Of a stretch of 64,000 nucleotides of DNA, positions 1,618-38,566 are shown piece by piece. Position numbers and translations under genes: made by a program. Source of the stretch: Helicostylum pulchrum (Eukaryota > Mucoromycota > Mucoromycetes > Mucorales > Mucoraceae); contig JAIXMO010000047.1 in the NCBI GenBank assembly GCA_025677825.1, positions 168,585-232,584 on the forward strand, in the 5' to 3' direction. Position 1 is the stretch's first letter, and each line of letters opens with the position of its first letter. The notes under the pieces were generated by a model, which had not been told where the DNA came from, made no database searches, and was given only the letters and a program-made list of their open reading frames with translations.

Positions 1618-4600
1618 TTACACCGTCATTGATTGATTTGACTGATTCACAGTTACGGATGGAGGTTCTTCCTTGTCATCATCGTAAACTGTAACTACCG
1701 AATCCTCAGCAAACACTGTTTCTACTTCCTCGAAAATAGTTACAAATCCATCTTCTAACGTAGAAGTAACTATGATTGTCGATGGTTCGGCTCTTGCGGG
1801 ATCATGATCATTTTCAGTGCTTGTGACAGGGCTGATGTTTTTAATTACAGGGATAGTTAACACTTGTGTAGTGGTAACGTGGACAGGGTCACCACATATC
1901 TCGCATAACGATGCTTGTGTCTTGAAAATATCCTAATTGAAAAACAAACAAATATATTAGATCTTTTTCTTTTTTTTTTTAAAAAAAAAAAAACTTACGG
2001 AACAGTATTGAAGCGAGCCTGGTGCGCCGTTTGTTAACGTCTCGCATACCGTGACTACTGTAGATACGCCATTGTCAGCATCTGGTACGAGAGAGCCATC
2101 AACCATACTTGGCGAGTTTGTGATCATCGAACCAAGTCTATCTACCGTGTTTGTAGATCCTATATTATTTAATACGGTGGTATAAACGGAGCAAACGGTC
2201 GATAACTTTTTTTTTTAAAAAAAAACTGTCAGTACATATTTAAATCAAATACACTAAAATTTAAAATAGCTTACGTGTTGTCCGGTTTCCATTGGTAGCG
2301 TAGTACTAGCAGATGGAGTACTAGCGGCCTGATCGCTAGCAGTGGCGACAAAAGATGTTATAGAGTTATCCTTTCCAACCGAATAAGTACTATACTCGAA
2401 ACCCAACATGTTTCCGCTATGCTTATTCTTATGGTTTCCATAATATCCTCCCTTCTTGTAGTTTTCATCATATCCTCCATGCTTACCGTACTTTCCGTGT
2501 TCGTCATAATGCGTATGATGTTGATGGAACATTGTAGCTGTAAGACCCTCCGAGACATACCCATGGTACTCTACAGAACCATTGTTACCGACACAAGTAA
2601 TTGTGGTGTCATTTTGGTTCAACACATGATCAGCGGTTCCTATATGAATATGGTATTCCGATGTGACCGTTTCAGTGGTACCTATTTCAACACTTGTTGT
2701 TGTGGCTGTAACTATTGAGGTCGTTGTTTCCGTATTAATTTGAGTGACATTGGCATTGATGGTAGCTGTAACAAGACGGACATCAACATCTGTTTTAATT
2801 TCAGTGGAAGTTGCAGTGGTTGTAGCTAACTCAGTTAAAGTACCAAGTTCAGTAGTGGTTAATGTGTTATTGATAAGTGCTGTCACCAGTCTAAAGTCAA
2901 CTTCCGTTCCACGTTCTGTTGCAGTAGTTGTAGCCATAACTGTTTCAGTATTCACTTGAGTGACATTAGCATTAATAGTAGCAGTGACCAGACGAACATC
3001 AACATCTGTCTCCTTAGCAGTAGTGGTTTCCGTAGTGGTAGCAAGTTGAGTCAAGGTACCCACCTCAGTTGTAGTCAATGTATTATTGATAAGTGCAGTA
3101 ACCAATCGAATATCAACTTCAGTTCCCTTAGCCGTAGTTATTTCAGTTATAGTAGCCAATTGAGTTAATGTACCGACCTCAGTTGTGGTTAAAGTGTTAT
3201 TGATAAGCGCTGTTACTAATCTAAAGTCAACTTCTGTGCCACGTTCTGTAGTTGTAGCAGTGGCAGTAGTAGTTTCTGTGTTCACTTGAGTGACATTAGC
3301 GTTGATAGTAGCAGTGACTAATCGAACATCCACATCAGTTTCCTTAGCGGTAGTCGTCGCAGTAGTTGTAGCTAATTCGGTTAAGGTACCAAGTTCAGTC
3401 GTAGTCAATGTATTATTGATCAACGCAGTAACTAATCTGAAATCGACTTCAGTTCCACGCTCAGTAGCAGTAGTGGTAGCCATAACCGTTTCAGTGTTCA
3501 CTTGAGTGATGTTAGCATTAATAGTAGCAGTTACAAGTCGAACATCAACATCTGTTTGTATAGCAGTAGTAACTAAAGTATTGTTGATAGTTGCTGTAAC
3601 CAATCTGACATCAACATCTGTCTTTGTAGCTGTAGCTGTAGCAGTAGTAGTAGCTAATTCGGTCACAGTACCCAACTCAGTTGTGGTAAGTGTATTATTA
3701 ATAAGTGCAGTGACCAAACGAATATCAACACCTCCTTCTTTTTCAGTTGTGGTGGCGGTTGTAGTCGCCAACAAAGTTTCTACACTGACTTGAGTGACAT
3801 TTGCATTGATAGTAGCAGTAACCAAACGGACATCGACACCGCCTTCCTTTTCAGTTGTAGTAGCAGTTGTTGTAGCTAATAAGGTTTCTGTGTTGACTTG
3901 AGTAACATTAGAGTTAATAGTAGCAGTAACCAAACGAATGTCAATATCAGTTCCCTTAGCCGTAGTTGTTTCTGTCGTAGTGGCTAATTGTGTCATAGTA
4001 TCAAGCTCGGTAGTAGTTAAAGTGTTATTAATAAGAGCAGTGACCAGTCTATAGTCGATTTCAGTTCCACGTTCGGTAGTAGTAGCGGTTGCAGTCGCTG
4101 TAGTAGTTTCGGTATTTACTTGAGTAACATTAGCATTAATAGTAGCCGTAACAAGACGAATATCAATATCAGTTCCCTTTGCAGTGGTCGTCGCAGTAGT
4201 TGTAGCCAATTCAGTTAAAGTACCAATCTCAGTCGTAGTCAACGTATTATTGATCAGAGCGGTAACTAATCTGTAATCGACTTCAGTTCCACGAGCAGTA
4301 GTTGTTGCAGTCGTTGTAGCCAATTCAGTTAGAGTACCAAGCTCAGTTGTGGTTAGTGTGTTGTTGATAACAGCGGTGACAAGACGAATATCCACCTCTG
4401 GTCGGGGCATAGTAGTCGTGAGAGTTGCTAATAATGTCTCTGTATTTACTAGAGTGACATTAGCGTTAATAGTAGCCGTAACAAGACGAACATCAACGTC
4501 AGTTCCCTTTGCAGTGGTCGTTGCAGTAGTGGTAGCCAGTTCAGTTAAAGTACCAATCTCAGTCATAGTCAGCGTATTATTTATCAAAGCGGTAACTAAT

Positions 4601-7409
4601 CTGTAATCGACTTCAGTTCCACGAGCAGTAGTTGTTGCGGTGGTAGTAGCCAATTCAGTTAGAGTACCAAGCTCAGTTGTAGTTAACGTATTATTGATAA
4701 GAGCAGTAACTAATCTATAATCGACCTCAGTACCGCGAGCAGTAGCAGTAGTGGTAGCTAATTCAGTCACAGTACCCAACTCAGTTGTGGTAAGTGTATT
4801 ATTGATAAGAGCAGTAACCAAACGAATATCAACACCTCCTTCTTTTTCAGTTGTGGTGGCGGTTGTAGTCGCCAACAAAGTTTCTACACTGACTTGAGTG
4901 ACATTTGCATTGATAGTAGCAGTAACCAAACGGACATCGACACCGCCTTCCTTTTCAGTTGTAGTAGCAGTTGTTGTAGCTAATAAGGTTTCTGTGTTGA
5001 CTTGAGTAACATTAGAGTTAATAGTAGCAGTAACCAAACGAATGTCAATATCAGTTCCCTTAGCCGTAGTTGTTTCGGTTGTAGTGGCCAATTGAGTCAT
5101 GGTGCCAACTTCAGTTGTGGTTAATGTATTATTGATCAATGCAGTAACTAATCTGTAATCAACTTCAGTTCCACGTTCTGTAGCAGTAGCTGTTGCAGTA
5201 GTAGTAGCTAACAAAGTTTTCGTATTTACGTGAGTAACATTAGCGTTAATAGTAGCTGTCACCAGTCTATAGTCAACCTCTGTTCCACGCTCAGTAGTAG
5301 TAGCAGTTGCTGTCGCAGTAGTGGTTTCAGTATTTATTTGAGTAACATTAGCATTAATAGTAGCTGTAACCATCTTGTAATCAACTTCAGTTCCGCGTGC
5401 CGTAGTAGTAGCGGTTGCGGTAATAGTTTGAGTGTCTACTTGAGTAACATTAGCATTAATAGTAGCCGTAACAAGACGAATATCAATATCAGTTCCCTTT
5501 GCAGTGGTCGTCGCAGTAGTAGTAGCCAATTCAGTTAAAGTACCAATCTCAGTCGTAGTCAACGTATTATTGATCAACGCAGTAACTAATCTGTAATCGA
5601 CTTCAGTTCCACGAGCAGTAGTTGTTGCAGTCGTTGTAGCCAATTCAGTTAGAGTACCAAGCTCAGTTGTGGTTAGTGTGTTGTTGATAACAGCGGTGAC
5701 AAGACGAATATCCACCTCTGGTCGGGGCATAGTAGTCGTGAGAGTTGCTAATAATGTCTCTGTATTTACTAGAGTGACATTAGCGTTAATAGTAGCTGTA
5801 ACAAGACGAACATCAACGTCAGTTCCCTTTGCAGTGGTCGTTGCAGTAGTGGTAGCCAATTCCGTCAAAGTACCAAGCTCAGTCTTAGTTAACGTATTAT
5901 TGATAAGAGCAGTGACAAGACGAATATCTACTTCTGGTCGAGGCATTGTAGTGGTTACAGTTGCAAATAGCGTCTCTGTGTTTATTTGAGTCACATTAGC
6001 GTTGACAGTAACCAACCTAACATCCACATCCGTTTTATACGCAGTTGTAACGTCGGTGAAAGTAACAGTTCCTAAACTTGTTGCGGTATCAGTTTGAGTT
6101 AACGTGTTATTGATAGTAGCGGTGGCAATACGAATATCCAATACAGAGCTGGTTTGAATGACTGTAGAGATATCAGAAACAGTAGAAGTAACTGTGTGCG
6201 TTGCAGTTGGCGCGTTTGTACAGCTGCCATAACATGAGCCGACAAAGGACTGGAGGGGGCCAAGGTATTGGGTCAAGTCGTCACATTTACGAGGTAAGCC
6301 AGTATGCAGACCAACATTTTGGAAGCAATCAACTACATCGGGTTGGCCCAACATATAGTCACACTCCATGCTGCCGCCAGAGGGAACTTCCACAGTTACC
6401 ATATTAACTTTGGTGGCGGTTATTGTCACGGGTGGCGGGATCGGTGCAGTTACGGTACTGACAACATGAGTACATTCAGCGGTGGCACTAAGGGGAGGTG
6501 CAGCGTTCTCACAGGTACTTGAACCGACAGAATCACATAAACAGTATGCGTCATCTTCAAAGTAAATCGTTTCGTAATCAGTACTTTCTTCATAACCCTA
6601 ACGTTAGAAAATCATATAAGAGAAAAGAAAAAAAAAAGGGGGGGGGAAGGAGGATAATTATTTTTTGTTCATCGATCTTTTTTCACTTACTGGATCATAA
6701 TCTAAATAGACGGTAGATGTTTCACGGAATGTTTCGGTTGAATCTTCCCTAACGGTTGACGTAGTGTAGTCTGTATAATAAAACTAGGAGAGAGAAAGAG
6801 AATACAGTTAATAAAAATAAATAGCTACTACTAAAATTCCATCTGTCTCTTACACTTGTAGTAGAAGTTGAAGTATGTGTAAGTATATTTGAGTTGGGAG
6901 GATCCAAACTAAGATCCACAAGGTAAGCAGCTAAAAATGGATCAGAATTAAGTTTTGCAGCAAAGAAATAATGAATAAATTGAAACAAGTCAGCACAACT
7001 AGGTTGAGAAATTTCATTGAGACATAAGATGATTAAATCTAAATCGATTCCAGTAGGGTAAATGACAGGAGGTCCTGGCCTAATGTTTGGGGTTGTGGAT
7101 TGGGCAGCTTTTAAGACGCCTTCCATTTCTTGTTCTGACGTAGGCGGGTTGACAAAGATATCTTCCAAAGAAAGTATAGGTTTAGTAGAAACTAAACTAC
7201 CATTGTCTAAACTTAAACCTAATGTTGTATCCGTCAATTCAATATTATCGGTTTCATTATCCGATTTTACACTAAAAAAAAGGTAAATGTTACGTTTTAC
7301 TTTTTCTTTTTTATTGTTCAATAAATATTTATGCATGTATAAACCTTTGTATAAATAAAAATACATAAAATAAAAAATAAGGAAAAACATAAAAATTGTT
7401 TAACCTCAT
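1618..7409 (-). CDS. Giant Thr/Val-rich tandem-repeat surface protein
   Basis: Five exons join in frame: 7271-6854, 6783-6691, 6597-2275, 2205-1999 and 1932-1618 (stop), giving about 1,780 residues. The first about 140 residues are non-repetitive. A Cys-rich stretch follows, with about ten Cys on both sides of the large-exon start. Then come more than 30 imperfect repeats of 37-38 residues of two alternating kinds. One has the core VDYRLVTALINNTLTTTE and the other VDVRLVTATINANVTQVN; each carries N-x-T sequons (NNT, NVT). The C-terminal about 250 residues are acidic with a few Cys and no hydrophobic GPI-type tail. Composition suggests a secreted or cell-wall adhesin-like protein, which is inference. 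The start is uncertain. An ATG at 7409 spliced through a weak GTTAAAC donor to 7271 gives M-S-V-K-S. An in-frame ATG at 7390 gives a hydrophobic N-terminus but reads through what looks like an intron. Confidence 0.7.
2700..6130. repeat. Coding tandem-repeat array, about 111-114 nt units
   Basis: Two related units alternate throughout the large exon of the repeat protein. Superimposed are near-identical higher-order blocks. 4141-4540 matches 5461-5860 at an offset of exactly 1,320 nt with only a few differences. 3721-3990 matches 4825-5094 at an offset of 1,104 nt. Both offsets are multiples of three, so block duplication kept the frame. Long open frames on the plus strand here are shadows of the repeat. 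Confidence 0.9.
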
Positions 7410-7508: not shown

Positions 7509-8911
7509 TCAGGACCAAAGAGTATTTATCGCGTTTTTCGGCCCTCCAATTTTATCAGAATATTTACAATGGTAAGCAGTATCAATGAATTGCCTACAAC
7601 AGTTATCTTGATCGTTTAAACCATTAGAGACAATTTCCACACACCTAACAGCCTGAGTAATATCTTCTTTTTGGTTTGGATCCGTACCAAATGCCGTGAT
7701 ATATTTTGTCGCGGAATGGATCAAGTTGTTATTGTATACATCAAAGCCATTGTCCTGAGCCAATTCCGATAAAAAGAGTATTGCTTGCATATTGAAGGCT
7801 AAATAGTGTAACGGTTTAGCTCTTTTAGCTTCAAATGGTTGGTTTCCAGTGGCCGAATCAATTTGTTTATGCAAATCATTCTTAAAAAAGTTAATAATGA
7901 TATTTGAAGCTTGTACAGATATAGGGTTTAAGAAATGGTCAATGGAAGCTATTTGAACAATATACCAAGTACGTATATTGTTTTTGGCTCTTGACGCCTC
8001 TAAAGCGACAGGGCTGGTTTTTAACCAATCGAGGTACTTGGTGAACCACAGTTTAATAGATTGATTTAATGCATAGTAAGCATGGAATGCGTCTAAAATA
8101 GGCAATAAGTTCGCGATACGGGATAAACTACATATAAACAAAAAGTAAGTCATTCTTGCCAGTTAAATAAATATATCCATGTATACAATGTTTCTTACAC
8201 TCTTGAACTTATTACTCCTTCACCACGGCCAAATTGAGATTTATTTTGAGCACCTCTTACAAATTGAGCATAGTTTAAATTTGGGTTCATTCTAGTGGTC
8301 TCGTTCAAAAAGAACGTGTCTAATAACGAAACTGCATGAATAGCGTAATTTTCATTATTTAGAAAATAGTACCCAAGGCATAAATATGTAAAGTTTTCCG
8401 CGAACAATTCCAACTGAGACTGATCTTTTATGTTTGTAATGTCTATATGTAATAGTGTTAAATGACAATAGGCTTTAAGAAGCATTTTTTTTTTTTTTTT
8501 TTTTCTTTTACCTGGATTTCTTTTTCCATCTTTCCTTATATAGTTGGTATTGGTTTCGTCCTATTTTTTTTTTACTCTTTTAAATAAACGTTTTTATTGG
8601 GATTAATACTTTAAATTTGTTTACCGGCCACCAGTATCTATGTTTTTAATTTTAATATACACGTTTAAATAAACATTCTAAACAATACTTTACGGTGCAT
8701 AACTAAGAAAATCACGGACGTCACCACTTGGTGCTGTATGCTCTACTGTTTTTCCGAATGTAATGCTAAATGGACCACTTTTTAAAGCTTCATTAGCAAG
8801 CTTTTCTAAACAAATATAAGCGTGTCTTGTTGTTTCTGTAGGTCCTATTTCTTTTTGTATTCTTAACTTTCGCAATGAAATGTACTCTACTTCTGGTTTT
8901 CGTGGGCCCAT
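7509..8911 (-). CDS. Alginate-lyase-family protein with 13-nt microexon
   Basis: Five exons, 8911-8694, 8637-8625, 8560-8512, 8442-8199 and 8127-7509, splice in perfect frame to about 380 residues. The joined protein shows the hallmarks of the PF05426 (alginate lyase) fold: GPFSITFGK and PSGDVRDFLSYAP near residues 45-73, YWWP supplied by the microexon, YIRKDGKRNP, RMNPNLNYAQ, GRGEGVISSR, and an NNIRTWYIVQ segment near residue 222. In the family as I know it the last motif reads NNH followed by [RG]-x-W and holds the catalytic His; here that position is Ile. The R-x5-HY segment downstream is present (KRAKPLHY). There is no obvious signal peptide. It lies 67 nt beyond the end of tptA on the same strand. 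Function may be polysaccharide binding or altered catalysis (inference). Confidence 0.82.
8625..8637 (-). other. 13-nt microexon of the lyase gene
   Basis: The sequence between a TAG acceptor (ending 8638) and a GTAAAC donor (starting 8624) supplies one base completing Pro plus codons for Tyr-Trp-Trp-Pro. That is the family motif expected between SYAP and the next exon. Without it the upstream exon would hit a stop, and the gene would look truncated into three pieces. Confidence 0.75.
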
Positions 8912-8978: not shown

Positions 8979-10261
8979 CTAGTTTAATTTTGTTTGTCGA
9001 GTCGGCAATAGATTATGGTGGTTTACTTGTTCGAGATTAGTTTTAGCTTTTTGATACATCCATAAGCCAATAAAAGTTAATAAAATACCAACAGATTGAG
9101 TCCAAGAAATAACCTGACCAAACCAAAGTATACTCATTACAATAACAAAAATTCTCTTTAAAAGAGATAGAATGGAATACGTAACTGGTGAAGTTAAACT
9201 AAGTGTTGTAAAAGCAAACCAATTTTGAAAAAAGTTGGTTGTTCCGTTCAATAAGAGATACACCATTAGTCTATTACCAGATATTTCTGGGCTGACAGTT
9301 ATACTTGTAGAGTCATAATATATCCATAACGGTATCATCATTAAAAACGATATCAAGGAGGAATAAAGTAACACGTTCAACTTATCCAACTTGTTTGGAT
9401 TCCTGTCTCCTAATTTCGATTCTTGAAATAATAACTTTTTGCTAAATATGTTTTGTACAACAAATACAAAGCAAGATCCTAAAGCACAACATAATCCAAT
9501 GACATTAGCAGAATATGTGAATGAACAAGCTAAAATGACTCCAATCGTAAGTGGTATCAATGAGATATATACACTATGAGGGTATTTGGTATCAAATACA
9601 AGTCGATAAAACAATACCGTGAACAATGGTGCCAAAGCCTATTATATCTGAATGTTATATTTAACCATTTACAATTTACAATGTACACTATATTTACCTT
9701 GATTGTATGAACTAAACTAACCGGGATTCTACTAATAGCTACACTCGAAAATATATGCCCAACAATCAAAAATACAGCCAATGGTGCAATTGTCTTTACA
9801 ATCACTGCTGTAGGGCTTCTAATATTTTTAGATTGAAATACAAGAGAAAATACAAGACTCCAGAAAGCAACCAATCCAAACTGAATAAATGTAAGCGTGA
9901 CTGGAAATACAAATACGTTCATGATACTCTTGCCAATGTTATTTGTAACTGAAGACGATATATACCACATACAACAGTTGAGAACAAATTTCACATTATC
10001 CGTCAAACTAAACCTTGTTTCATTCCACCATCCCAACTTTTTAATCCACTCTTCTTTTTCTTCACTTTCTAAATGTCGCGTTGAGAGGTCGCTTTGCATA
10101 TCTGGTTCGAAGCTCGTACCCTTAAAAAATGAAAACTTCTCGGCTCCTTCCTCGTTTGCTATTCGTCTTGGTTTAGGGGAGGTTGATTTCGTCTCACCCA
10201 TTTCATATTCTTCTAAGCTAGATCTCGTCCCATCTCGAGAAAGGTCTTTGACAACAGACAT
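8979..10261 (-). CDS. tptA: Triose-phosphate-transporter family carrier (sex-locus flank)
   Basis: Two exons, 10261-9698 and 9638-8979, are separated by a 59-nt GT-AG intron and give 407 residues. After a hydrophilic acidic N-terminus of about 90 residues come roughly ten hydrophobic spans typical of the drug/metabolite transporter fold. TPT-family signatures are visible: VSLVHTIKALAPLFTVL across the splice, and SPVTYSILSLLKRIFVIVMS near the C-terminus with the conserved Lys-Arg. The family exchanges phosphorylated C3-C6 compounds or related solutes in Golgi, ER or plastid membranes; the substrate here is unknown. It is divergent from the HMG gene, with 253 nt between start codons. This neighbour relationship is the conserved left boundary of the Mucoromycota sex locus. 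Confidence 0.92.
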
Positions 10262-10311
10262 ACTTTAGCAAAATCATAGATAATTTTTCTCCTATGTCTC
10301 ATGGGGCTATA

Positions 10312-10319
10312 TGACGTCA
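10312..10319. promoter_or_regulatory. Palindromic TGACGTCA (CRE/bZIP-type) site
   Basis: A perfect 8-nt ATF/CREB-type palindrome lies in the 253-nt divergent spacer, 51 nt upstream of the tptA start codon and about 195 nt upstream of the HMG-gene start codon. It is followed directly by CGTAAT, so an overlapping half-site is present. That a bZIP factor uses it, and for which gene, is inference. Confidence 0.45.
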
Positions 10320-10514
10320 CGTAATTATTCGCTACTGGAAGGAGATTACTGCTAGTCAACTCATTGTAAACCAGAAGTATACTCGTACAGATTACAAAAT
10401 TCAAACAATGAATGTGTGAAATGATCGTCCAACCAATTAAAATTGTAGTTCTTTATTTAAAACCTGAAAGAAACCAGAACAATTATTCGTCTCCTTCTTT
10501 CCTATAAAATAAAG

Positions 10515-11477
10515 ATGAAAAATTCGCTCTACTCAAAGTCAACTCCATTTATTCGACAATTAAAGCCAAAGTTATCTCTTCCAAAGAAAACTCTTCCGAT
10601 TCAAAATTTATCTTTTAGCAACGACCTAGAAGGAAAGACCCTTATAAAAATATATCCTAGCCAGGTATTAATCACATCCCAAGAATTAATTGAAATGATT
10701 GAAGAAAAGAAAGAAAGTATACAGGTGGAGAAGAGTGCTTGTGTTCTTCGTGAAAACATACTGGTTGCAATTCAAAACTTTGCCTGCGAAGAAGATACAT
10801 CCGTTCCTATAAGTCAAGACTCTGTTCTACCAAACGTAGAGCCTAGACGTCCTACCAACGCTTTTATACTCTACCGAACTGCTTTAAGAAAAAAAATTAA
10901 ATCATTGTTTCCGTCCTTTAGCAACAATGATATCTCAAAATTCACTGGTGCTATGTGGAAGGCGGCAGATAAAGAAGTCAAAGACAAATACATCAAACAA
11001 GCAACGGAATGTAGGATTCTTCACAAACAAATGTATCCTGATTTCGAATATAACACTAAAAAGGAAATCTCGGAGAAAGCAGTTACGTACGGAGAGGATT
11101 ATCCTTTCACGAGCGATAACTGGGATGAGTACTTCAACTGGTGTATGCAAAATGTCACGACAGGAATAGTTACCGATGAAACTCAGCCTTTAGATGGTAC
11201 AAACTTGATGCCTAATTATATGGATTGGAACAATTTAAACATTACAAGAGAAGTACCATTCGGGAGTCTGCTGGGAGAGGGTTATCACGAAAATAATGAA
11301 TGGAAAGAAGTCTGCAACATGGTTAATCAATTTTTCCCGGAAGATTCAGGCCAGAATACGGTAATTGACGAAAAACTATGGTTAAATATCGGAGGTACAG
11401 AGTTGACGAATATCGAAGACATCAGTTCCGCATCTTACTTTAAACTTAATCAAATTGGTTCCTTCGAACAACACTGA
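10515..11477 (+). CDS. HMG-box mating-type transcription factor (SexM or SexP)
   Basis: A single uninterrupted frame of 320 residues. Residues 111-182 form a MATA-type HMG box: RRPTNAFILYR opens it, then SFSNNDISKFTGAMWK, then KDKYIKQATE and a basic/Tyr-rich end. The N-terminal 110 residues are basic and the C-terminal 140 residues are acidic with Trp/Asn-rich segments, resembling no domain I know. Position between tptA and rnhA identifies it as the sex-determining gene of a Mucoromycota mating-type locus, which controls mating identity and the response to trisporic acid (established for the family). M and P alleles differ strongly outside the box, and I cannot assign the allele here. The stop lies only 92 nt before the rnhA start codon on the same strand. 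Confidence 0.93.
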   Translation: MKNSLYSKSTPFIRQLKPKLSLPKKTLPIQNLSFSNDLEGKTLIKIYPSQVLITSQELIEMIEEKKESIQVEKSACVLRENILVAIQNFACEEDTSVPISQDSVLPNVEPRRPTNAFILYRTALRKKIKSLFPSFSNNDISKFTGAMWKAADKEVKDKYIKQATECRILHKQMYPDFEYNTKKEISEKAVTYGEDYPFTSDNWDEYFNWCMQNVTTGIVTDETQPLDGTNLMPNYMDWNNLNITREVPFGSLLGEGYHENNEWKEVCNMVNQFFPEDSGQNTVIDEKLWLNIGGTELTNIEDISSASYFKLNQIGSFEQH

Positions 11478-11569
11478 TAAGTTCACCGGAATTTATAAGA
11501 TCTTTTTGTAAATAAATTATCGGACTTCTTAATTGTCTTTTCCTCTCTTTGTTACACTTTTTGATAAAT

Positions 11570-14500
11570 ATGAACTCGCGAAAGGAATCTTCTCGTTCGC
11601 GTTGGGAAAACATCGACTGGGAATCACCAGAGTAAATAGATCTTTTTTTTTATAAAAATAAAAAAAGTTCTAAAAAGGTTGACTTATGTGTATAACATCC
11701 TTCTAGTTTATCAAGTGCACCAACAGTGGTTAATGCAACACTTAATTCTTTGACAAATGAATTTGAAGTTTCCAAAACCAAAACTCCATCACGTTCCAAA
11801 TTTGATTTTGGATCAAACAAAAATTCAAATAGTTGGATATACGATGCAGAGCGAGGTTGGGATTCCAGTCCAAACGTACAAGAAAAGAGTTGGGATCCTT
11901 CTTGTTATGAACCTGTACAAGATTCGAATAGCGGACAACATCATAAGTTTAGTTCTGGTGAGACTGCTGTCTTTCGATTAAATATGGACATGGAGGATAC
12001 ACCTGTGTTTTCTAAAGTGGTAGATTATACTGCCTTTCGTGATCAAGATATTATTCCTGACTATGATGACATTATCACTGCAGAAGAGTTGAAGGATCCT
12101 GAAGTTTGGGAAAACAGAAATTTTAGGACCCCTTTACCTGATATTCCTATTAATCGTATAAAGACTCCTTACGATAATGCCGATCAGTACCTTTATACAC
12201 ATTTCGAATTGATGCGTCAAGATTTTCTTATTCCGCTTCAAAAAGCTGTCAAAGCTTATAAGGAAGTTTATAACTATACCAAAACAAAAGACGATCAGGG
12301 TTTAGCTATGGAAACGGCGTCTAATCAACAACCTTATAGGCTATATGAACATGTAAGTAACAATATAAAAAATTTATGTAGAATACTTACATTTTTTTTA
12401 TATCTGTATATAGGTGCGTTTGAATGCTATTGTGTTTGGTAGTAGACAACCATTATACAGAATTAGTTTTCGATTGCCGTATTATTGTCGAGTTAATTGG
12501 CCTCAGTCTAAAAGATTAATGCCTGGTACACTTGTCTTATTGTCAAAAGATCATTTCGATAAAGATTTAAAGATAGCAACGATTGTTGAAAGAGGAGATG
12601 AACCTATGCGTGGAGCCAACCGATTTGAATACCTTTTGGATTTATACCTTGAGCGAGATAATGAGAATCAACCGTTTGGATTCGGTGATCCAACCATGAT
12701 GAATGATGATACCTATGTGATGATTGAAGCCACAGATGGGTATTTTGAAGCTTACAGACATGTCCTGAACGTCTTTCAAAGAATCAAACCAACCGAGCTT
12801 CCTTTTAAACCTTACTTGGTCGATTTATCAAATGAGGTTATGTTACCCCATTACGCAGCAAGAAAAGGGAGATATGATATTAACGTGCGTAAAAGAGAAA
12901 GAGGACGCGAAAGGTGGGACGTTGATATCAATCGTGAATGGCCCGTTTATAATACTGGAATGGATAAAACTCAAATGGATGCATTGAAAACAATTCTCTC
13001 TCATAATCTGTCTATTGTACAAGGTCCTCCTGGTACTGGTAAAACTTATGTTGGTACTTATGCAATGCAGGTACTTTTAAATAACTTTGATTCTTCTTTG
13101 GGTCCCATTGTTTGTATTTGTCAAACAAATCACGGTAAGATAGAGAGACAGGTACATATAAATATTTATTCATACTAAACAATATATATATATATATATA
13201 TAGCTTTGGATCAATTCTTGGAACATATTTACAAGTTTGATGAAAAGATCGTTCGTGTTGGTGGTAGATCCAAATCAGAATTATTAAAGAATAATACTTT
13301 ATACGAATTAAAAAAAGTACACGAAAGACCAAGAGGTATTGGAAGAATGTATCGTTCAAGAGACGAACTCGGTAAAGAGATTCAAAAGACACTTGTCGAA
13401 TTATACGAAGAACCTTGTGTTTCTATTGATTTCATTACATCTATCAAGGGCTTAACTCCTAGACAGATTGAGAGTCTTAAACGTATCAGTGAACGTAACA
13501 AGAATCGACCCAAACCATCAGCCGCCAATACGTTTATTAACGATGATTCAGATTCAGATGATGATTGGGAAATTAGTTCAATTGAACCCGTAGCAAAAAA
13601 GGCACATAAAGGGCCCGTTAAAAACACAAGAGGAAATCCTGCGTCAACTGCAAAACCAAGAAACGGTGTAAATAATTCATGGGAAGGTGGAAACCCTAAT
13701 CAGATTGAACCTGTTAAAGAAAAACAAACTAACCCAGTCGAGATTTGGTTAGCAGATGCTATGGATTTTATTAACGATACGGGCATGATGTCTACCATTG
13801 CAGAAGAGATGAAGCAAACCCTATTAGAAAAAGAAAAGGGCCTCATATTTGACGAAGATCCAGATGATCGAGATTTAATTGAAGAAGACGAGCTTAAAGA
13901 AGTAACACAAGAATTTAGAGGTGATGATGACAGTAGAGCGTTTAAAAACCCATTTATTCAAATCGGAAAGGCCTATAAAAAACAAAATGAGCCTGGTCCA
14001 GGTGAAGGTCCCGAAAGAAAAGTGGTGAATTATCAAAAGATCAGAACTGCTACGGATTTCGAACCTCAAAAGTTTAATTTCTTTGATGATAGTGGTGATG
14101 ATGGTTTCTTTGAAGAAGAAAACAGCAAGTATTCTTTAGAGAGATGGACAAAAGAAAGCGATGTATCAATGTGGCCACTTCCTGTTCGATTAAAAGCTCA
14201 TAAAATCTGGGTTGATCAAAGAAATGCAATGTTAGAACAAAAAATGAATATGCTTATGAATCGTTATGTCGAACTTTCAAATGAAATTAGAAAGACTACT
14301 GCTATCTTTGAAGCTAAAATCTGTAGAGAGCATAGAGTTGTTGGAATGACTAGTACTGCTGCTGCTAAATATCACGATTTATTGGAAGAAATGCGTCCTA
14401 GAGTCATGGTTGTGGAAGAAGCTGCCGAAATGTTGGAATCGCATATTATCTCTGCATTGACCAGATCATTAGAACATCTTATTTTAATTGGTGATCATCA

Positions 14501-15699
14501 ACAATTACGACCTTCAACAGCTGTTCATGCATTAGCAGAGAACCACGCATTAGGTGTTTCCTTATTTGAAAGATTAGTTAAAAACGATTTCCCCTTCACA
14601 AGACTCTCTCATCAAAGACGTATGAGACCCGAGATCCGTACAATGATTAACCCTATTTATATCGATCCACCACTCAACGATCATCCAGACGTGTTTGATT
14701 ATCCACCGATTAAGGGTATGGAGCAATCCTTATTCTTTTTAGCACATAATGAAGATGAAACACATTTAAGTGATTCTGCTTCTAAAGTCAATGAACATGA
14801 AGCAAAGATGGCCGCCAAGTTATCAGTATACTTAATGCTACAAGGATACCGTACCGACGAAATTACCATCATTACCATGTATGCAGGTCAAAAATCCCTT
14901 ATTAAAAAGGCTCTTCGAGAAGAAAGAAGAGCGTATACAGATCCTGAAACTATTCAAGTTAGTAGTGTTGATGGTTTTCAAGGTGAGGAAAATAAGATCA
15001 TTATCTTGTCACTTGTACGTAGTAATGCAAATGGACAAATTGGGTTCTTGAAAGTCGTGAATCGTGTGTGTGTATCTTTATCCAGAGCTAAACATGTAAG
15101 TAGCATTTTTTTTCTTTGTTTTTTTGTGTACTTATGCAATATGTATATACAAATATAGGGTTTTTATATTCTTGGTAATGCATCACTCTTATGTGAAAGA
15201 AGTGATCTCTGGAACGAAATTATTGGCAACTTGGAGAACCAATCTACCGAAATGATCGGAACAAAGTTACCCTTAAAGTGTAAAAAACATAATGTAATTA
15301 CTGAAGTTCAATGGCCTGTTGATTTTACTGAAGTAGAAGAAGGTGGCTGTACAAAGCCTTGTGGTGAATCTTTACCCTGTGGGCATAAGGTAAGAAAAAT
15401 AACATGTTCTTTAAAAAAATAATTAGTAATATCTAATTCAAAGAAAAAAGTGTTCATTTAAATGTCATCCATTTGATCACATGGATATCCGTTGTAGCCT
15501 ACAATGTCAAAAAGTCCTTCCATGTCGTCATACCTGTATCCGTCGCTGTTGTGAACCTTGTGGTCCCTGTATAACAAGAATCAGTGTTCGTCTCCCTTGC
15601 GGGCATACTATGGACGGGGAATGCAATTTCTTCCGAGAAATCGCAGGCTCAAAAAGAACGGGTAAATGTCCTGTGTGCAAGACTACTATTTCCGCTTAA
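11570..15699 (+). CDS. rnhA: NF-X1/ZNFX1-like RNA helicase (sex-locus flank)
   Basis: Six exons, 11570-11631, 11707-12352, 12414-13134, 13204-15095, 15159-15389 and 15451-15699, join in frame to 1,266 residues. Superfamily-1 helicase motifs appear in order: Walker A GPPGTGKT near residue 440 followed across a splice by TNHALDQFLE; VVEEAAEM (DEAG-like motif II) near 878; SHQRRMRPE near 945; and DGFQGEE with SLSRAKHGFYILGN near 1065-1100. A Cys/His-rich tail (about 1130-1266) carries NF-X1-type zinc-finger spacing, such as CGHK, CSFKCHPFDH, CRHTCIRRC and a final CPVC. Between motifs I and II lies a long acidic, low-complexity insertion. Upf1-like enzymes of this type act in RNA silencing and surveillance. 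It forms the right boundary of the sex locus. Confidence 0.93.
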
Positions 15700-18213
15700 T
15701 AGATTATTTTATTTGCTTTTTTATTATGGTATGATTTTTTATAACTAAGAGAAATAAAAATATCAACGGGGTTTATCTTTTTATGTAAACTTACCAAAGT
15801 ATTTGACGAGTAAAAAAAAACGATACTACTAGTTAAGAGAATGGAAAGTTTTGGCTCAAACAAAAAACATTTCATTATGTTTATACCAGACTATATTAGT
15901 AACTGTATAATATACATATGGTTCTTTTTAATCCGCCCTTTGTTGTAATATATTTGGTCTCGACAATTCATTGAGGTTACCCGCAACTTTTAAAAAGGTA
16001 TTTAAACTCGAAGTTTGAAAAGAGTTAAATGTATTTATTTATAGCATAGAATATAATAATGGAAGGATAAAAAAGTATGCAAAGGAATGAATTATGTGTG
16101 CAGAAGAATATGTATAAATTTTCATCAAGTTTTTGATTAAATGAATAAAAAAGCCAATAGGGAAAAAAAAAGCTCACTGAGATACCTGAGTTTAAATAAT
16201 CGCTCACATAAGAAATCACTGCTGAAATTAGCAGTTATAATAAATATTGGTTTATATTTTTTAAAGAAACAGGAAACACTTTTTGGACTCAAGTTTTTTA
16301 ATAAAAAATAGTTGTTTTAAATATATCTTTGATAAAAAAAATTAAAAACAAACTTTTTCGTTTTTTTTTTGATTTTCATTTTTGGGGGTCAACCCTTTTT
16401 GTGTTTTGGTAGTTATTTTATATTTGCTTCGGATCCAATTTGCTTATCTTTGTGAAAAAATTATGTATGGTATAACACTTGTTTATACGCTTTTAATCCA
16501 TTTTAAATCATATTTTTAATGCAAAAATTGAAAGAGTAATCGCTGTTTTAGACGTTTTTTTTTTTGGGTAAAAAAACACACTTTTTAGTGTAACCATTTT
16601 CAGAGCTTCGCGATTACATAGAATATAGTTTTTTATTACCGTGTTTGGTTATAGCACCGAATGTAAATATTTAAAAACTATATATTGGATGTTTATAAGT
16701 AAAAGTGCCACATTCCAAACTGGACGAGAAAACGCGCTTTAAAGAAATCGCTAATTTAAGGACCGCTTAACTCAAATTTTAGCGAAAAACAAATGTCTAA
16801 AACGGTGATTACTCGGTCAGTATTTTTACTAAATATATACTTTTAAATGGATTAAATTCGCCTAAAAGAGCACTTTATTATCATTATTTTTTCTACAAAC
16901 AAAAGAAAAGTGGAAATTAAGTAATTTTAAAATAACCACAAAAACACAAAAGGGGTTGACCCCTCAAAATGAACTAAATGCCAAAAATGACCAACCAAAA
17001 AAAAAGTAGAAACAATCGAGAAAGATATCAAACAGCAAGCGGTTTTTAATAATTAATCTTAGAAAAAACATCTTAAGGAGTAACTTTCACTAAGTAACTT
17101 GGATAAAAAAACATTTCCTGACGTTTAATTACATAAAGAAAACACATTATTTCGATCACCGAAAAATGACCTTTTTTAGAAGTTACTTCTAAACCTTCAC
17201 TTAAAAACACGCGTTTTTAAGAAGATAATAGACAGACAATAATAGATTACAACACTTTAAATTGTTCTTAAACTTTTCCAAGTAATTGTACAAAAAAATA
17301 TGGTGTGTATCTTTTTCTATAAGAGCTCAAACATTAAAATTATATTAATTTCTATTAATTTTTTTTTTGCTGTCAATTAAGAATTTGAAGAGCTATTTAT
17401 CAGAATACCATATAACAATGCATCTACACACTACTTTCTATGGTAGATAGGACTAAAAAGAACCTTTTTGGTCACTTTATTTGGTTTAGACTGCATCCTT
17501 CTTTAATCTTTCATCGCTTAGCGGCCATATGTATTTAACTACTTTTCCTAGTTAATTTTCTAGTGATCCGGAGATAAAAGAAGCAAGAGTTAACTTTGTC
17601 AACCAATTGATAATAGCCTCGCTTATTACCAACGAAAACGTATACGATTTATTTTATAACTGTCTTGTTTTTGGACGATTTTTGTGTACCACGGATGGAA
17701 AATAGCTTCAGGGGAAATTCCTCTATTCGCCTGGTCGATTCTAAAAAAAAGTATGATGCATTATTATTTTTTTGTTTAACTACTTTCGTGTGCACATTAT
17801 TTTTATAGAAAAGGACTTATAAATCTAGTTGGAGCAATAGGGGGATTCTTGGTTCCAATTTTTTTTTTGCCTGAACGTGTAAATAAAAGTTGTGGAACAT
17901 GTACATAAAAATGATCAAACGGATCACATGAGAAATATATTTTGGGAAGGATATTATTATGAAGCACAGAGTTAATAAAAACAACAGCTCGATTTAAGTG
18001 AGTACCAGACTGTATAGTTGTCAATTAGTTATGAAGATTATTTATTTAGTTTATATAAATGGTATTAGGATGTACAACATTACATGTGATGTAATACGTC
18101 GTTTTCCTAAACCTCTCTAATAAAAACTTACCCTGTACTATTTAAACCAATTTTTTAATGTCCAAGCAGTTGTCTAGAATTAGTTATGTTTATAAAAAAA
18201 GGAAAAGGAAAAT
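15700..18213. other. Intergenic, 2.5 kb, non-coding next to rnhA
   Basis: No convincing gene. The strongest structure is the inverted repeat at 16384-16963, entered separately. Around 17894-17940 lies a stretch similar to 42955-43000. Short open frames at 16025-16219 and 17803-18024 have Phe/Ile/Tyr-rich composition and no family resemblance. Confidence 0.6.
16384..16963. mobile_element. MITE-like foldback element with long inverted repeats
   Basis: The left end (16384-16421) begins GGGGGTCAACCC followed by a TTTTTGTGTTTT tract. The right end (about 16930-16963) is its imperfect reverse complement, ending AAAAGGGGTTGACCCC. Further in, 16490-16557 (TAATCCATTTTAAA through GAGTAATCGCTGTTTTAGA) pairs with the reverse complement of 16796-16862. 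The arms are therefore about 170 nt with a 230-nt AT-rich centre and no open frame of note. Weaker pairing seems to extend outward to about 16320 and 17030. Size, foldback form and lack of coding fit a non-autonomous DNA element; I do not see clear target-site duplications by eye. Confidence 0.65.
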
Positions 18214-18858
18214 TTATGTTTGCCGTGAGAGATCAGTTTGACCGGGCCTTCCAATTTTCTCAATCAAAGCAACTGATTTTTCCAAGGATTTCACCAACTC
18301 TCCTAGACCAGCAAGATCAATATCATCATGACTGATCGTAGGTATTTTTTCAACCCCTTTTTTTAATAGATCCGTATACTTTTGCGTTTCTTCTACAAAA
18401 GTAGCAACACGGACCGATTTATCATCCGCGTTTCTCTCCACAACCTGCTCTTTTACAGAACGTCTCTTTCTACCCACTCTTGACTGAAAAACAGCAGTAT
18501 ACGGATCGTGATACTCGTGCCTCCAAAAGTACTTTATAAAAACCGACCCACTGTTTTGCTTTACCACGTTTAACCTAGCAGGACACCCTACTTTAATCGA
18601 CGGTTTTACTTGCCTTCTCTTATCTTCCGGTGTTTTCAAGTTTTTTTTCTGAGGTTTACAAGCGTGTCTGCAAGCATAATAAACAACGTCTTCGTTGTAC
18701 GAGTTTTTGGTTTTCTTGGAAATAATCCAGGTAACGTGCTTCGAAGCTGTGGTTTCTAACCAAAGAGTAAACGCTTCGTCGTTTTCAAACGTTTGCACAT
18801 GAGGATGTCGTGTGTAGTCTGTAACAGAATGAGGTGTGGTGGAGGAAGAACTAGCCAT
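18214..18858 (-). CDS. FAR1/FLYWCH-type DNA-binding-domain protein
   Basis: A single-exon frame of 214 residues. Residues about 25-115 form a Mutator-transposase-type zinc-binding module: FENDEAFTLWL, then YYACRHACK, VGCPARLNV and YFWRHEYHDP, giving a C-x(n)-C-x(n)-H-x-x-H pattern as in FAR1 and WRKY-GCM1-related domains. A basic RVGRKRRS patch follows, then a helical charged C-terminus. No transposase catalytic core is present, so this is a stand-alone domain of transposon descent, of which Mucorales carry many. The role is unknown; a DNA-binding regulator or relic are both possible. Confidence 0.7.
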   Translation of the reverse strand: MASSSSTTPHSVTDYTRHPHVQTFENDEAFTLWLETTASKHVTWIISKKTKNSYNEDVVYYACRHACKPQKKNLKTPEDKRRQVKPSIKVGCPARLNVVKQNSGSVFIKYFWRHEYHDPYTAVFQSRVGRKRRSVKEQVVERNADDKSVRVATFVEETQKYTDLLKKGVEKIPTISHDDIDLAGLGELVKSLEKSVALIEKIGRPGQTDLSRQT

Positions 18859-19495
18859 TGTAAAAGTTTGTGCAAGCGAAAAATAAATAAATATACCAGT
18901 GCCCCTATTTTTTTTTAAAAAATAAGCATGCCCTGAATTTTCGTGTCATTTGTGACTTCGAGTAAGTGAGGTCTCTGCATTTCCATCATAATTAATTAAA
19001 AACTACATACTTGTTACAAAAAAACAGTTGCCTTCCATCCAAAAAACGAAAAGGATCAAATTTTTTAAATCTGAATAAAAATAGAGAACAAAAAATAGCT
19101 TTCAGTGTTTGATGTTAAACATATATTTCAAACGACTAATTCGTGTTACACGATATAAGCAAAAGAAGTTATTTCTAATTTTAAATTAACTGTCAAAATC
19201 ATCTCTTTTTTAAGAGTGATTACATACTACCGACACTGTATATCTTACCTGAGTATGTACTATATCAAGTTATAAAATAACAGTGACTGTAAGGTTATGT
19301 TTAAAAACACACGCATGAAAAAAGTACCTACTGCTTCCGTTGTTGAATCCAACTACTGAATGTATTAAAACGGGGTTTTTTTAAAAGGACGTTATTATCC
19401 AGTGACCGCTTCTTACCGCCCAGATATAATTAAAACAAAACTCCAACAAAAAAAAAAAAATCCTTTCTTTTTTCTATTTACAGTCGTACGAAAAA
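18859..19495. other. Divergent spacer, 0.64 kb, nothing recognised
   Basis: AT-rich sequence between two divergently transcribed genes, presumably holding both promoters. A T-rich stretch precedes the downstream start codon. No repeat, RNA gene or further coding signal seen. Confidence 0.5.
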
Positions 19496-31356: not shown

Positions 31357-34300
31357 TTAAATGGTTGGTTTGTAAAATCCTATAGCCTTCCATTGCTCAA
31401 AGGATTTACTAAACAATCTTGAACCAACAACAGGTGCTTTATCAATAATTGACGTAACCGCTACCGTCTTCTTTGTTTCCCAAACAGGCATCTTGAGCGA
31501 CGAGTGCAAGAAACTATCTTGATAAAACGAAACCAATTTAAACGCGGGGTTACTTTCATCCTTGGCCAATGCATCTAACCACTCTACCGGAGACACGACC
31601 TCAAACCTCATCCCTGCATCTTTAACCGAATCTAACACATCTCTCCATTGCACAAGACGAGGGTTTACAATATGATATACGGACTGATCCTTATTCGCAG
31701 TAAAGTACGCTGTCTTGAGCATAATCTCCGTGATGGCCGCAGCAGCATGATCCACCGTAATCCAATCCACTGAGATACCCAAATCTGGAAACTTACGCAA
31801 TTAAGATCCTCCCACAAGCATCAACGGATACTGCTCAGAGCTATTCCAAACGCCCTTTTCTGAATCACCACAAACCTGCGTCACTCTTTCCACATAGCAC
31901 GGAATATTTTTCTCCGTCGTCAAATAATTTAACAACACTTCCACCACAAACTTTGATTGCGCGTAACCCATAGGCATCGCCACCCTTGAATCCAACCTTA
32001 CCGGCTCTTCAAGAATACTATCACCATTACCACCGTGCCCGATACTAGCAGAAATACTGGATACAAAATGAACATGCATCGGGTTGACTTGACGGTACGC
32101 AAACCTGATCAAATTATAAAACGGCGCAACGCACTCTTTCTCATAATGCTCAATCGACATATTGAAATCCAACAACCACCCACAATGCTGTACAATCGTC
32201 ACTTCACTCTTCACCTCAAAGTATTCTTCATCACTCAGCCCCAGGAACGGCTCACTCAACTGCATGCGCAATACTTCGACTCTCTCACTTTTTAAAAGTG
32301 ACGTATCCAAAGACCGGGTTTCAAACGCTTGCATTAACCGTGCCATCATCATCGTCTGCTGCCCTGTCTTCTCACGTACCATCACGTACACTTTCTTCAC
32401 AGACCTGTCAAGAAGTAAATCACGTAGTATAAACGAACCAAGGGACCCAGTTGCGCCTGTCAACAAAACCACCTTACTACCTTGCTTATCACTGTACGTG
32501 TTTGTAGCTGCAGTCAGAAAATCTCGTTTTGCCCGTTTAATGTAGTCAATCGCTATCTGCTGCGTCTGCTGATACCTCCCCTCTATCACCTCGTCGTGCT
32601 CTTCCTTCGTATCACCGATCAGCGCCTTACACACGGCCTCAACGCTCGTATACTGATATAAGAAATTCAACGACCCGTTATCAAAATACTCTACAACCAA
32701 GTTCCGAAACTGAATCGCCGTCAGTGAATCAAGTCCGTAATAAAACAACGATTGCGATCGATCCACCATCGATCCCTCGTCAATATCATCCATTACCTTA
32801 ACCGCGCACGACACCACAAACTCTTCTACTTGCTCGTACGTCCAACTCGATGTATTTTTATCAAAATCTCTTGACGAAGGTCCCTGTAAAAACTCCTTAT
32901 ACATCTTTTCAACCATACCAATATACTCCAACTCGGCCTTCTTTCGCATCACAGTACCTTTATCCGTAGACGGCAACGTCTTTTCCAACGGTAAGATCTT
33001 GACCATCTGCGGCAGTATGATGCTGTGCTTGCTGCCGGACTCTTTATTTGCGCGCTTGATCGCCACATGCACGGTCGATACGATATCTTCGGGCGAAACA
33101 CGCTTCGCATACGCCATATCAATTTCAATAAGAGCAGCTGTGCACTGCCGCCCATGCCCAACCACCGCAACCTGTTTCACAATAGCTTCTTGTCGAATAA
33201 TTGCTTCCATCGAGACCGGGTCTGTCTTTTTTCCGTTTTCCATGACCAGCATATCGTCACGTCTTCCTACGTACCGATAATACCCCGGGAACTTGACATC
33301 CTCTCTGAACAAATCGTTGGTATCGTACCCGCCATCCTTTCAATTTGAAATGCCCATAGCTAAATTAGGCGACCCTTTACGAATATACAAGTGCTTGATA
33401 TCGGGTTCTGCCTCATCGTCGGTTTTAAAGACGTGGTAGTAGTGACCGTGTTCGTCCTTCAAGAAGGGTGCGACAGACGTCCAATTCTCACTGCGCGGGT
33501 CTAAATTGGATGACATGGACCCGCCTGTTTCAGTAGACCCGTACATGTCGCGTACATTGACACCGTGCGTCTGAAGCCAGTGAGCAGACTCGTACTTGAG
33601 TGGAGCTCCTCCAAACGCTGCAACTAAAAGTCGCTTGACCGTAGAAAAGTCCTTAGTTTTCTTTAGGTACTCGATCATTTGCTCGTAGATGATAGGCTGT
33701 GCTGACATAATCGTGTATTTATTAGTCTCTAGTGCAAAATGAAGTTCCTCTTGTGATGATTGAAGCTTCTCCATAAATACTGCTTTTCCACCTACAAACG
33801 ATGCACCAAAAATAGGAAAAAACCCAAAAATATGATATCTGGTATAAATATTTATTAGAACAACCTCCCCCTTTTTTTTAAAAACAAATATCTTACTTAC
33901 AAAGACGTACAAGCAAGAAATGTATCGTTCGCATTGAGATCACGTAACCCTTTCTCCTTCGTAACAAGCCTATGAAACGGACTCATTATATTAAACAAAT
34001 ACATATTACTGAGATAATTAGGTTTAGGTAACGAAACCGAACCGGACGTATGAAAAATTAATGCCGTCTTTTCAATATCCTCATCCAAAAATTTGTAATC
34101 CAACAACCGTTTATGGTTCACATCCCTAGATTTCTTTAACAACCGATTCATATCTAGAGCTTCCAACACAGCTGTCTTGATCAGAACCGAGCATTGCATC
34201 CGTACACAATTCGCCATCGCTTCATAATTGGGTGTAACAAACAACAGCGTAGTACTTGTCTTTTTTAACAAATTAACAACGCCTGCTTCAGAAGTACGAG

Positions 34301-34625
34301 GTGAGATGGCTACCACGGGTATACGCAGCTTCAACATCGCCAACAAGGTAATCAGGTACTCTGCGCCATGGTCTCCAATAAACGATATGGTTTCAACGTC
34401 TCTTGTAGCATGTACCAATTGACAGGCGAGATTGGTGGCGAGACGATCGACTTGCGCATACGTCAAGGTTTCATACCGCCTGTTGGAATAATAGTAAACG
34501 TAAGGGGTATTGGCATACAGAGCGCACTGGATGTTCATAAAGTTCGTAAGTGACTTATAGTACTCTGGAATAGATTGTCCATTAGAGAAGCTAACATAAG
34601 AAGGTATCTTTGGTGGTTTTGCCAT
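31357..34625 (-). pseudogene. A-T-R adenylate-forming reductase with two nonsense codons
   Basis: Exons 34625-33901 and 33838-31357 (62-nt intron) mirror the intact paralogue at 38567-41809 in exon structure. Domains are adenylation (HTSGSVSLPK, MYGSTETGG, VGRRDD), a phosphopantetheine carrier site (GLDSLTAIQ), and a thioester reductase with TGATGSLGS and the YAQSK catalytic pair. The frame is continuous except for TGA at 33342-33340, where the paralogue has Arg, and TAA at 31803-31801, where the paralogue has Ile. No indels are needed. The coding sequence is visibly more GC-rich than the paralogue, so it is not a recent copy of it. Either it is young in its decay, or the stops are tolerated or recoded. 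A translated product would stop after the adenylation domain core, at about residue 407. Confidence 0.82.
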
Positions 34626-35803
34626 TTTGTTTTTTTTAAAACAAGGGAAGATAAAAAAATGGAACTTATATACGAAATCTGCGTTGTCTTTGCAAAAATC
34701 TTAGATGTAAGTGATTTCCCATTATATTCTGTGCAGTATAAAATCTTTTTTTTTTAGCTCTAGAATAACGACAGACGCGAAACTACATGTTACCATAGTT
34801 TCTGCACAAATGTCTTAAAATATGTCCCCCCGTCACGTTTTGGTCGAAAAATCAATTTTTTTTTTATTGTGAGGAAAAAGTAGTAAACATTTTTTTTTTA
34901 AAAAAAAGGTTCACGCTTTTTAACTTAATTCTTGTATAATGCATGAAATATACTTATGGTTCAAAGTAGCTCGGTCTACGTAATTAAGCCAACTGATAGC
35001 TCCTTTAACGTCGTTTAAAATGTCGCATCGAAAAAAAAAATCGTAGTGGTAGTAGTTTATAAACTAATTTTTTAAAAAAAATAAGTGAAATATATTCATT
35101 ATACTCCGGAAAAAGTAAAGAATGGTAATAGCTCATTGGTCTCTTACTAAAAAAAAAAGAAACGAGATGCCGTCATATGACAAGTTACCAAACGATGAGA
35201 AGCCTCGACTCTCAAGTCTATCAGAATTCAAAATGGAACCATAAAATATATCACGTCGTACAATTCCTCTTTTGTCCTAGAAGAATAAAAATGATAACTA
35301 CACAAACGAAATGAGATACTCAGCTAGTTCTATAATTGGAAAGGAAAAAACTATGCCTTCTTTTTTTTTCCTTTCGATAGGTATCTATTAAAAGTTGAAA
35401 AGTTGGCTATTTCCAGTACCTATGTAGTTTTTACTGGTAGTACAAACTTACTCGATCTTGAATTGATCCAGAATCTTTTTTTATAGGTATAAATCGTAGT
35501 GATTAGTGTTTCTATAAAGTATCGACACTAATAAAATAAACTAGAGGTATATCATCTTCAAAGGACAAAGTAACTTTCGAATAAGAAACCGTATCGAAAA
35601 AATTGAGAATCGGAGCTTCTGTCTTACTCCCAAAATAATGGGCTCACTTAGAAATTACCCAATAAGATTACTTTGTAATGCGTTTCTGGTTTTTTTTTCC
35701 TTGTTTGAACTGGGGACAATAAAAGAAACCCCAAATCCGTTCTTTTCTTCTTTCTTTTTTCTCTTCCAAGATATTCTTAACAACAAAGTATAACAAAAAA
35801 AAA
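34626..35803. other. Divergent spacer, 1.18 kb
   Basis: Separates the interrupted A-T-R gene from the CBS-domain gene. AT-rich with short homopolymers; no RNA gene or repeat recognised. Confidence 0.5.
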
Positions 35804-37194: not shown

Positions 37195-38566
37195 TCAGTA
37201 AAAACAACTCTCTCCCTTGTATTATTTCTTTCTCATAAACCCTGATATCAATATAAATATATAAATATAAACTTCAAAGTAAATAATGTGTTACTTTCAC
37301 TGTAAGCTTACAACATGAATTGTTGATGGTATTTCTCATTTTAATATAAGCTTGCACTGATGCAATTAAATGTATAATAATTATTCTGTTCCATGAGAAT
37401 TGTTATTATACCTAGAAATAGAAAATAAAAGGCTATACGACCACCACTTCTTGCAGCTAACGATTATTAGGGCCACGTTCAAGCGATTAAGTTAAACTTA
37501 CTATCCTAAATCAAATAAAGCTTTTACTATAATCATAAGATACTCTCGGAGTCAGCGATCGAGCGTTTTTTTATATAAAAAAGACTAAAATAAGCTAATG
37601 ACGACATCTAATATTACTGAACAAGTAATAAACGTTCATGATAGTTATCGTAGAGGTAAATGGCCCAGATGAGTCTAACTCGACCATTTCTACCTTTTAA
37701 TCGATTGGACGATCATCTACGAAAAAAAAAACTTAATTCGGTTAAATTATTATGTCCTATCTCGGCGATAAAAACATCAACTATTTGAACGGCGACTACA
37801 GGCATTATTAAATGTTGCCATATTTATGCGAAAAAAGAGCATATAACGTGAATCAGCAAAGCAAAAACAAAAAACCGCCAAGCAACAATAAAGATACCAG
37901 CGCTCGTTTTTCTTACATGACTCGTAAAAGTATTTTTTAGTTAAAATTGATCTGGAATCGTGTTATTTCAAATCATCTGGTGACAAATAAAATTTTGCCT
38001 GCAGAAGTGTAAAGCTAAATAGGTTGAAGTTACCGGCGGTGCTAGAATTATTACCCGGTTTAGCAAATAGGAAAAAAAAAAGAATTGGGATTAATCAAAT
38101 TACATAATTTTGGTATGATTTTAAGCGTTGATTTACGAATTATCAGAGTACCTAGTAAGTTATTCGTGCAATTCTCACCAAAGTCGAGTGCTAGAAGCAG
38201 AGAAATTTGTAAGTAGTAAATTGATTTACCGGTTGCCAGCAAATTTCTATTACGTATATTATGCATGATGTATGTATTCTTTATTATGAATGCGTTAGTA
38301 CGATTATGCTAAAGCGCGAAAAAAAAAGAAGGTATATTTAATTACTCTCATGAATTATCACCCGCTCAAACGATGTGTACACCAAAAATTGAAATAAATA
38401 ATTTAACCGAACTCCTAATTTGCCTATATTAGGCGAATTAATCTCAAGGAAAAACTATTTTAAAAAAAAAAACCTGAATTTCAAAGGAAAGTGTATATAT
38501 ACCTGAGACTTTTATACAAAAATAACCTTTCTTTATTAAACACTTATACATTGCTTTAAATAAACA
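37195..38566. other. Intergenic, 1.37 kb, no gene seen
   Basis: AT-rich, without open frames of family resemblance. A TATATATA stretch about 75 nt before the A-T-R start codon could serve as its TATA element. Confidence 0.5.

Follow-up and report, generated by a model that had tools for sequence, protein, structure and literature searches.

Gene content and arrangement of the locus

We analyzed a window of 64,000 nt from the Helicostylum pulchrum genome (contig C111, positions 168585-232584; the genome comprises 32.2 Mb in 168 contigs), in which an initial annotation had placed a complete sex (mating-type) locus at positions 8979-15699. The trio of a carrier, an HMG-box gene and a helicase named there was borne out by gene models and Pfam matches: a minus-strand tptA is followed by the HMG-box gene and rnhA, both on the plus strand, with the frames of all three intact and with the stop codons of tptA (8979) and rnhA (15699) as outer limits. 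Beyond tptA we found one gene more than had been listed, agl, so that the local order reads agl/tptA/sex/rnhA. The genes, together with the box, are:

7509..8560, minus strand: agl, alginate-lyase family (PF05426 matches in two open reading frames, ORFs)
8979..10261, minus strand: tptA, TPT-family carrier (splice model, PF03151)
10515..11477, plus strand: sexP-type HMG-box gene, intronless, 320 aa (Pfam, protein and profile searches, box tree)
10842..11045, plus strand: HMG box, residues 110-177 (PF00505, E = 2.4e-18)
11570..15699, plus strand: rnhA, ZNFX1-like SF1 helicase (splice model; ZNFX1, AAA_11, AAA_12)

The splice model of tptA joins exons 10261-9698 and 9638-8979 into a protein of 407 aa, each exon giving one match to the TPT family (PF03151; E = 4.9e-13 and 1.9e-41). 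That of rnhA (exons 11570-11631, 11707-12352, 12414-13134, 13204-15095, 15159-15389 and 15451-15699; 1266 aa) has GT..AG borders at 5/5 introns and matches the ZNFX1 domain (E = 7.3e-17) and the helicase domains AAA_11 and AAA_12. An NF-X1-like Cys/His pattern was read by eye from the translation at its C-terminus, where Pfam gave a sub-threshold RING match only; NCBIfam returned nothing close to its cut-offs. The two agl ORFs (7509-8162 and 8195-8560) match Alginate_lyase (PF05426; E = 4.6e-23 and 4.1e-15), and the extent given for this gene is that of the matching ORFs only. The start codons of tptA and the HMG-box gene lie 253 bp apart, the HMG stop codon precedes the rnhA start codon by 92 bp, and 1308 bp separate the start codons of tptA and rnhA.

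We compared this layout with passages from published work on sex loci (PMC7928374, PMC5982828, PMC3116813, PMC5587739, PMC3000332, PMC3834313, PMC9233402, PMC2866331), to which the published comparisons made below are limited. The order agl/tptA/sex/rnhA is described there as the general one, present in most Mucorales genomes of one study, for example in Thamnidium elegans and Mucor plumbeus (PMC7928374), and with Mucor irregularis and Mucor circinelloides (+) the locus further shares the inversion of tptA relative to the sex gene and an intronless sexP. We find a complete sex locus of the Mucorales type, in an order matching the Mucor arrangement; intergenic DNA amounts to 345 bp in all, as compared with 570 bp in M. 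circinelloides (+). The initial annotation had seen in it the exact order and spacing of both Mucorales and Phycomyces loci, of which the Mucor arrangement stands and the Phycomyces one does not. Phycomyces blakesleeanus (+) and Rhizopus oryzae (+) also keep tptA, sexP and rnhA together, but in the former sexP has the opposite orientation and the intergenic DNA reaches 5.33 kb (0.57 kb in M. circinelloides), and in the latter a BTB gene is inserted and all genes run in one direction, unlike here. Exceptions to the order exist: Rhizopus species often have an altered trio, the locus of Mucor saturninus reads agl/sexP/rnhA with tptA absent there, and two Umbelopsidales genomes have a DUF2405 gene in the position of rnhA (PMC7928374). 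The initial annotation had made the flanking genes part of a sex-determining neighborhood, which for this locus is a conjecture; in three M. circinelloides forms, the region that diverges between the sexes includes the tptA promoter only, or both promoters, and the two genes, tptA and rnhA, show high conservation across the sexes.

A comparable trio occurs in microsporidia, where the flanking genes were reported to be paralogous and no idiomorphs were found in the published comparison. The trio alone therefore does not fix the lineage, as had initially been claimed; the outcome, Mucorales, was nevertheless the right one, and is reached through sequence similarity, which places the locus in this order near Thamnidium and Pilaira. 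We regard the locus as ordinary and well preserved rather than as a new kind of sex locus. Among the titles and abstract openings surveyed, none dealt with this locus.

Identity of the HMG-box gene

In a search with the HMG protein, 15/832 candidates, the query itself included, scored E <= 0.001, and the other 14 aligned at 42-83% identity over 83-100% of its length. Among them were T. elegans INT48_007452 (81% over 99%), proteins of Pilaira anomala (71%) and M. saturninus (60%), and the named SexP of M. irregularis (45% over 91%). We infer that the M. saturninus protein is the sexP product of the published agl/sexP/rnhA locus. T. elegans thus resembles our strain in both gene order and protein, although it is another species and the passage describing its locus (PMC7928374) does not state which allele it carries. 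The HMG protein had initially been thought to resemble nothing outside its box, and its allele to be possibly new; this reading is not supported, because the similarity to the proteins above, a named SexP among them, extends over 83-100% of its length. A profile built from the 15 proteins recovered 81 among 6239 candidates, and 31 of these, which we call SexP-type (the window's protein included), stood apart at E <= 5.1e-50 and covered 73-100% of the query. The next protein below the gap had E = 6.3e-16, and the proteins beyond it were other HMG proteins, including MAT1-2 of Aspergillus and Rhizophagus. Fitting names were carried by 3/31: SexP of M. irregularis, SexP of Syzygites and a sex plus protein of Rhizopus microsporus.

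The structure and promoter of the gene agree with this assignment. Intronless and 320 aa long, it fits published SexP (intronless, about 258-326 aa, the lower value coming from a footnote-marked table cell) and falls outside the 188-249 aa given for SexM in one published table. Upstream of it lies a motif known from M. irregularis:

10423..10437, plus strand: CCAAT-type motif GATCNNNNANCCAAT, published for the M. irregularis sexP promoter (exact match)

In that species the motif (GATCxxxxAxCCAAT) occurs 73 bp before the SexP start codon, and its conservation extends to SexP of other Mucorales. The promoters of SexM and SexP in M. irregularis are described as having no conserved sequence in common. 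Here, GATCNNNNANCCAAT occurs 77 bp before the ATG of the HMG-box gene, on the same strand. The window holds this single exact match, with 0.11 expected and one present in 11/100 shuffles; by hand arithmetic from genome counts, an exact match in the 253-bp promoter, on one strand or the other, would arise by chance about 6 times in 10,000. With one mismatch allowed the window held 9 matches, as compared with 4.17 expected, which is weak evidence.

We also placed the box in a tree of 57 HMG boxes, comprising the 31 SexP-type proteins, 13 others from the same genome and 13 chosen outside boxes, over 71 columns and with no SexM among them; the tree program warned of few columns and long branches. 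The SexP-type rows formed one side of a branch (support 74/81), within which the window's box grouped with Thamnidium, Pilaira and one unnamed protein (99/92). The initial annotation had proposed setting the box against non-mating HMG proteins, and in this tree it grouped with the SexP boxes, apart from the 13 other boxes of its own genome. With 25 HMG-box matches in the genome, such boxes are common, and a non-mating HMG gene might have come to lie between tptA and rnhA by chance. We consider this so improbable as to be nearly negligible, given that the similarity to SexP spans the full length, that the gene order is as published, and that the box stands apart from 13/24 other boxes of the genome, the remaining 11 being too short for the tree.

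Taken together, these results make it very likely that the window carries the (+) allele, sexP, in a Mucorales sex locus close to those of Thamnidium and Pilaira. The basis of this call is similarity to SexP, together with protein length and promoter, and not a tree of SexP and SexM. Several points weigh against it. The genome has 71 exact occurrences of the motif (reversed control, 36), a SexP or sex plus name stands on only the three SexP-type proteins above, and the branch around them has support of only 74/81, on 71 columns, with one long box of the same genome (on contig C125) placed beside the group. None of the 15, 81 and 4 proteins from three protein searches was named SexM, the last of these searches having used Syzygites SexP as query and having been aimed at SexM. 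Moreover, a published tree has the M. irregularis SexM within the SexP group, so that a tree alone may fail to settle the allele. The start of the box, RPTNAFILY, is neutral in this respect, as it fits a motif published for both alleles.

With no SexM among the sequences compared, and with a published SexM grouping with SexP, the gene might instead be sexM or SexM-like and the strain (-). This is extremely unlikely: the protein is 45% identical over 91% of its length to M. irregularis SexP, whereas SexP and SexM share 7-14% of amino acids in the table rows available for the M. circinelloides forms; it is longer than any SexM in the published range; and it has the SexP promoter motif. The sequenced strain, with sexP as the preferred assignment, is probably (+).

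Copy number and mating system

Searched against its own genome, the HMG protein gave one full match, the other two (31% and 27%) being confined to the box. A query comprising most of rnhA exon 4 found no second close copy of rnhA in the genome. The tptA exon 2 query revealed a paralogue on contig C1 (71% in that exon). By tblastn, this paralogue lies at about 4734-5790 within C1:688500-698400, with about 54% and 69% identity in two matched parts; tblastn with the three window proteins found TPT only, and no HMG or rnhA match, in these 9.9 kb. A neighbor of the paralogue is, as we take it from its translation, a phosphoglycerate-mutase gene.

The single full HMG copy fits a heterothallic (+) strain. 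A homothallic strain, in which this locus would hold sexP and another part of the genome a divergent sexM, has precedent, since both genes have been published in one genome for Syzygites and for R. microsporus var. azygosporus; the 24 other HMG-box matches might include such a gene. It is nonetheless very unlikely, because no second close copy of rnhA was found, the tptA paralogue on C1 lacks an HMG or rnhA match in the 9.9 kb around it, and the published genomes of relatives, T. elegans included, are described with a single sex locus (PMC7928374).

Beyond the window, the genome has matches to the TP6A_N (Spo11-type) and TBPIP (Hop2-type) families and 12 matches to the carotenoid-oxygenase family, counted exon by exon. 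These families are linked to meiosis and trisporoids. The matches agree with an ability to mate through trisporoids, as family matches that do not prove function.

Conserved regions of SexP outside the box and a possible mode of action

Aligned with one another, the 31 SexP-type proteins show conservation beyond the box, in regions that may be relevant to the mode of action of SexP. Two of them are:

10575..10784, plus strand: conserved N-terminal domain, about residues 21-90 (alignment, conservation, models)
11289..11393, plus strand: conserved C-terminal motif, about residues 259-293 (conservation; low-confidence model)

The mean frequency of the majority residue across the 31 sequences was 0.55 at residues 21-90, 0.57 at residues 200-216 and 0.63 at residues 259-293, the linkers reaching 0.28-0.29 and the HMG box 0.75. 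In the alignment, 2/31 proteins begin late, without the first part of the N-terminal region. This region was modeled confidently, both within the whole protein and alone, and no fold match stood out for it, a chromodomain being one candidate fold considered; the C-terminal motif was modeled with low confidence (predicted local distance difference test, pLDDT, 52-68). The structural model of the HMG box matches DNA-binding boxes of the SOX type. The window's protein had Pfam matches to HMG-box families only, with none at the N-terminal domain, and across the 31 proteins no non-HMG family appeared in more than 5 members (best E = 0.0016). Among the titles and abstract openings surveyed, none dealt with an N-terminal domain in SexP, and the N-terminal domain and C-terminal motif common to SexP-type proteins are possibly unrecorded.

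One published paper relates, second-hand, that a nuclear-localization sequence is present in SexM and not in SexP, and that expression of sexP occurs both in single and in mated culture. We tentatively raise, as an unlikely but not fanciful idea, that the N-terminal domain and the C-terminal motif are (+)-specific working parts, for example for binding a partner on the way into the nucleus or to targets. If so, these parts would be relevant to the very mode of action of SexP, since a nuclear-localization sequence has been reported for SexM but not for SexP.

By analogy with published relatives, the locus would determine sex in this strain, and SexP should set the (+) program. As an HMG-box transcription factor, SexP would bind and bend DNA through its box at target promoters in a (+) strain, and might recruit the transcription machinery, perhaps via the conserved C-terminal motif; both the role of this motif and the nature of the targets are a guess on our part. 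Hyphae would thereby act as the (+) partner when trisporoids are exchanged and zygospores formed, and sexM would occupy the same position in strains of the opposite sex. In Mucor, published sexM deletion mutants are sterile, and a natural isolate changed upstream of SexP mates poorly.

From the locus, the strain can be typed as probably (+) and assigned to the vicinity of Thamnidium and Pilaira, and the set of available SexP proteins gains one well-preserved member. It leaves the picture of sex determination in the Mucorales unchanged, the N-terminal domain being of interest if it is (+)-specific.

Other features of the window

About 460 bp after rnhA begins an AT-rich noncoding repeat, running from about 16163 to 17200-17560 and containing two inverted arms of 189 nt (16375-16563 and 16785-16973) that are 74% complementary. 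Out of 324 candidates, 40 scored copies, its own included, all matched most of positions 16180-17000, the 39 others being 84-88% identical; the left edge lay near 16163 in 4/5 copies compared, and the right ends varied. This repeat is perhaps an element resembling miniature inverted-repeat transposable elements. Farther on, a minus-strand ORF (18214-18945) with sub-threshold matches to FAR1 and ALS2CR8 derives perhaps from a transposase.

On the other side of the locus, a minus-strand ORF of 1447 aa (2254-6597) consists mostly of threonine-rich repeats, whose coding units of about 108 and 114 bp lie in tandem; it had no Pfam match at E 0.01, and its product is perhaps a cell-surface protein. 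Two diverging genes, at 31801-34700 (minus strand) and 38564-41809 (plus strand), each combine an AMP-binding domain, a phosphopantetheine site and an NAD_binding_4 reductase domain, and by this predicted content form an inverted pair of related, carboxylate-reductase-like genes.

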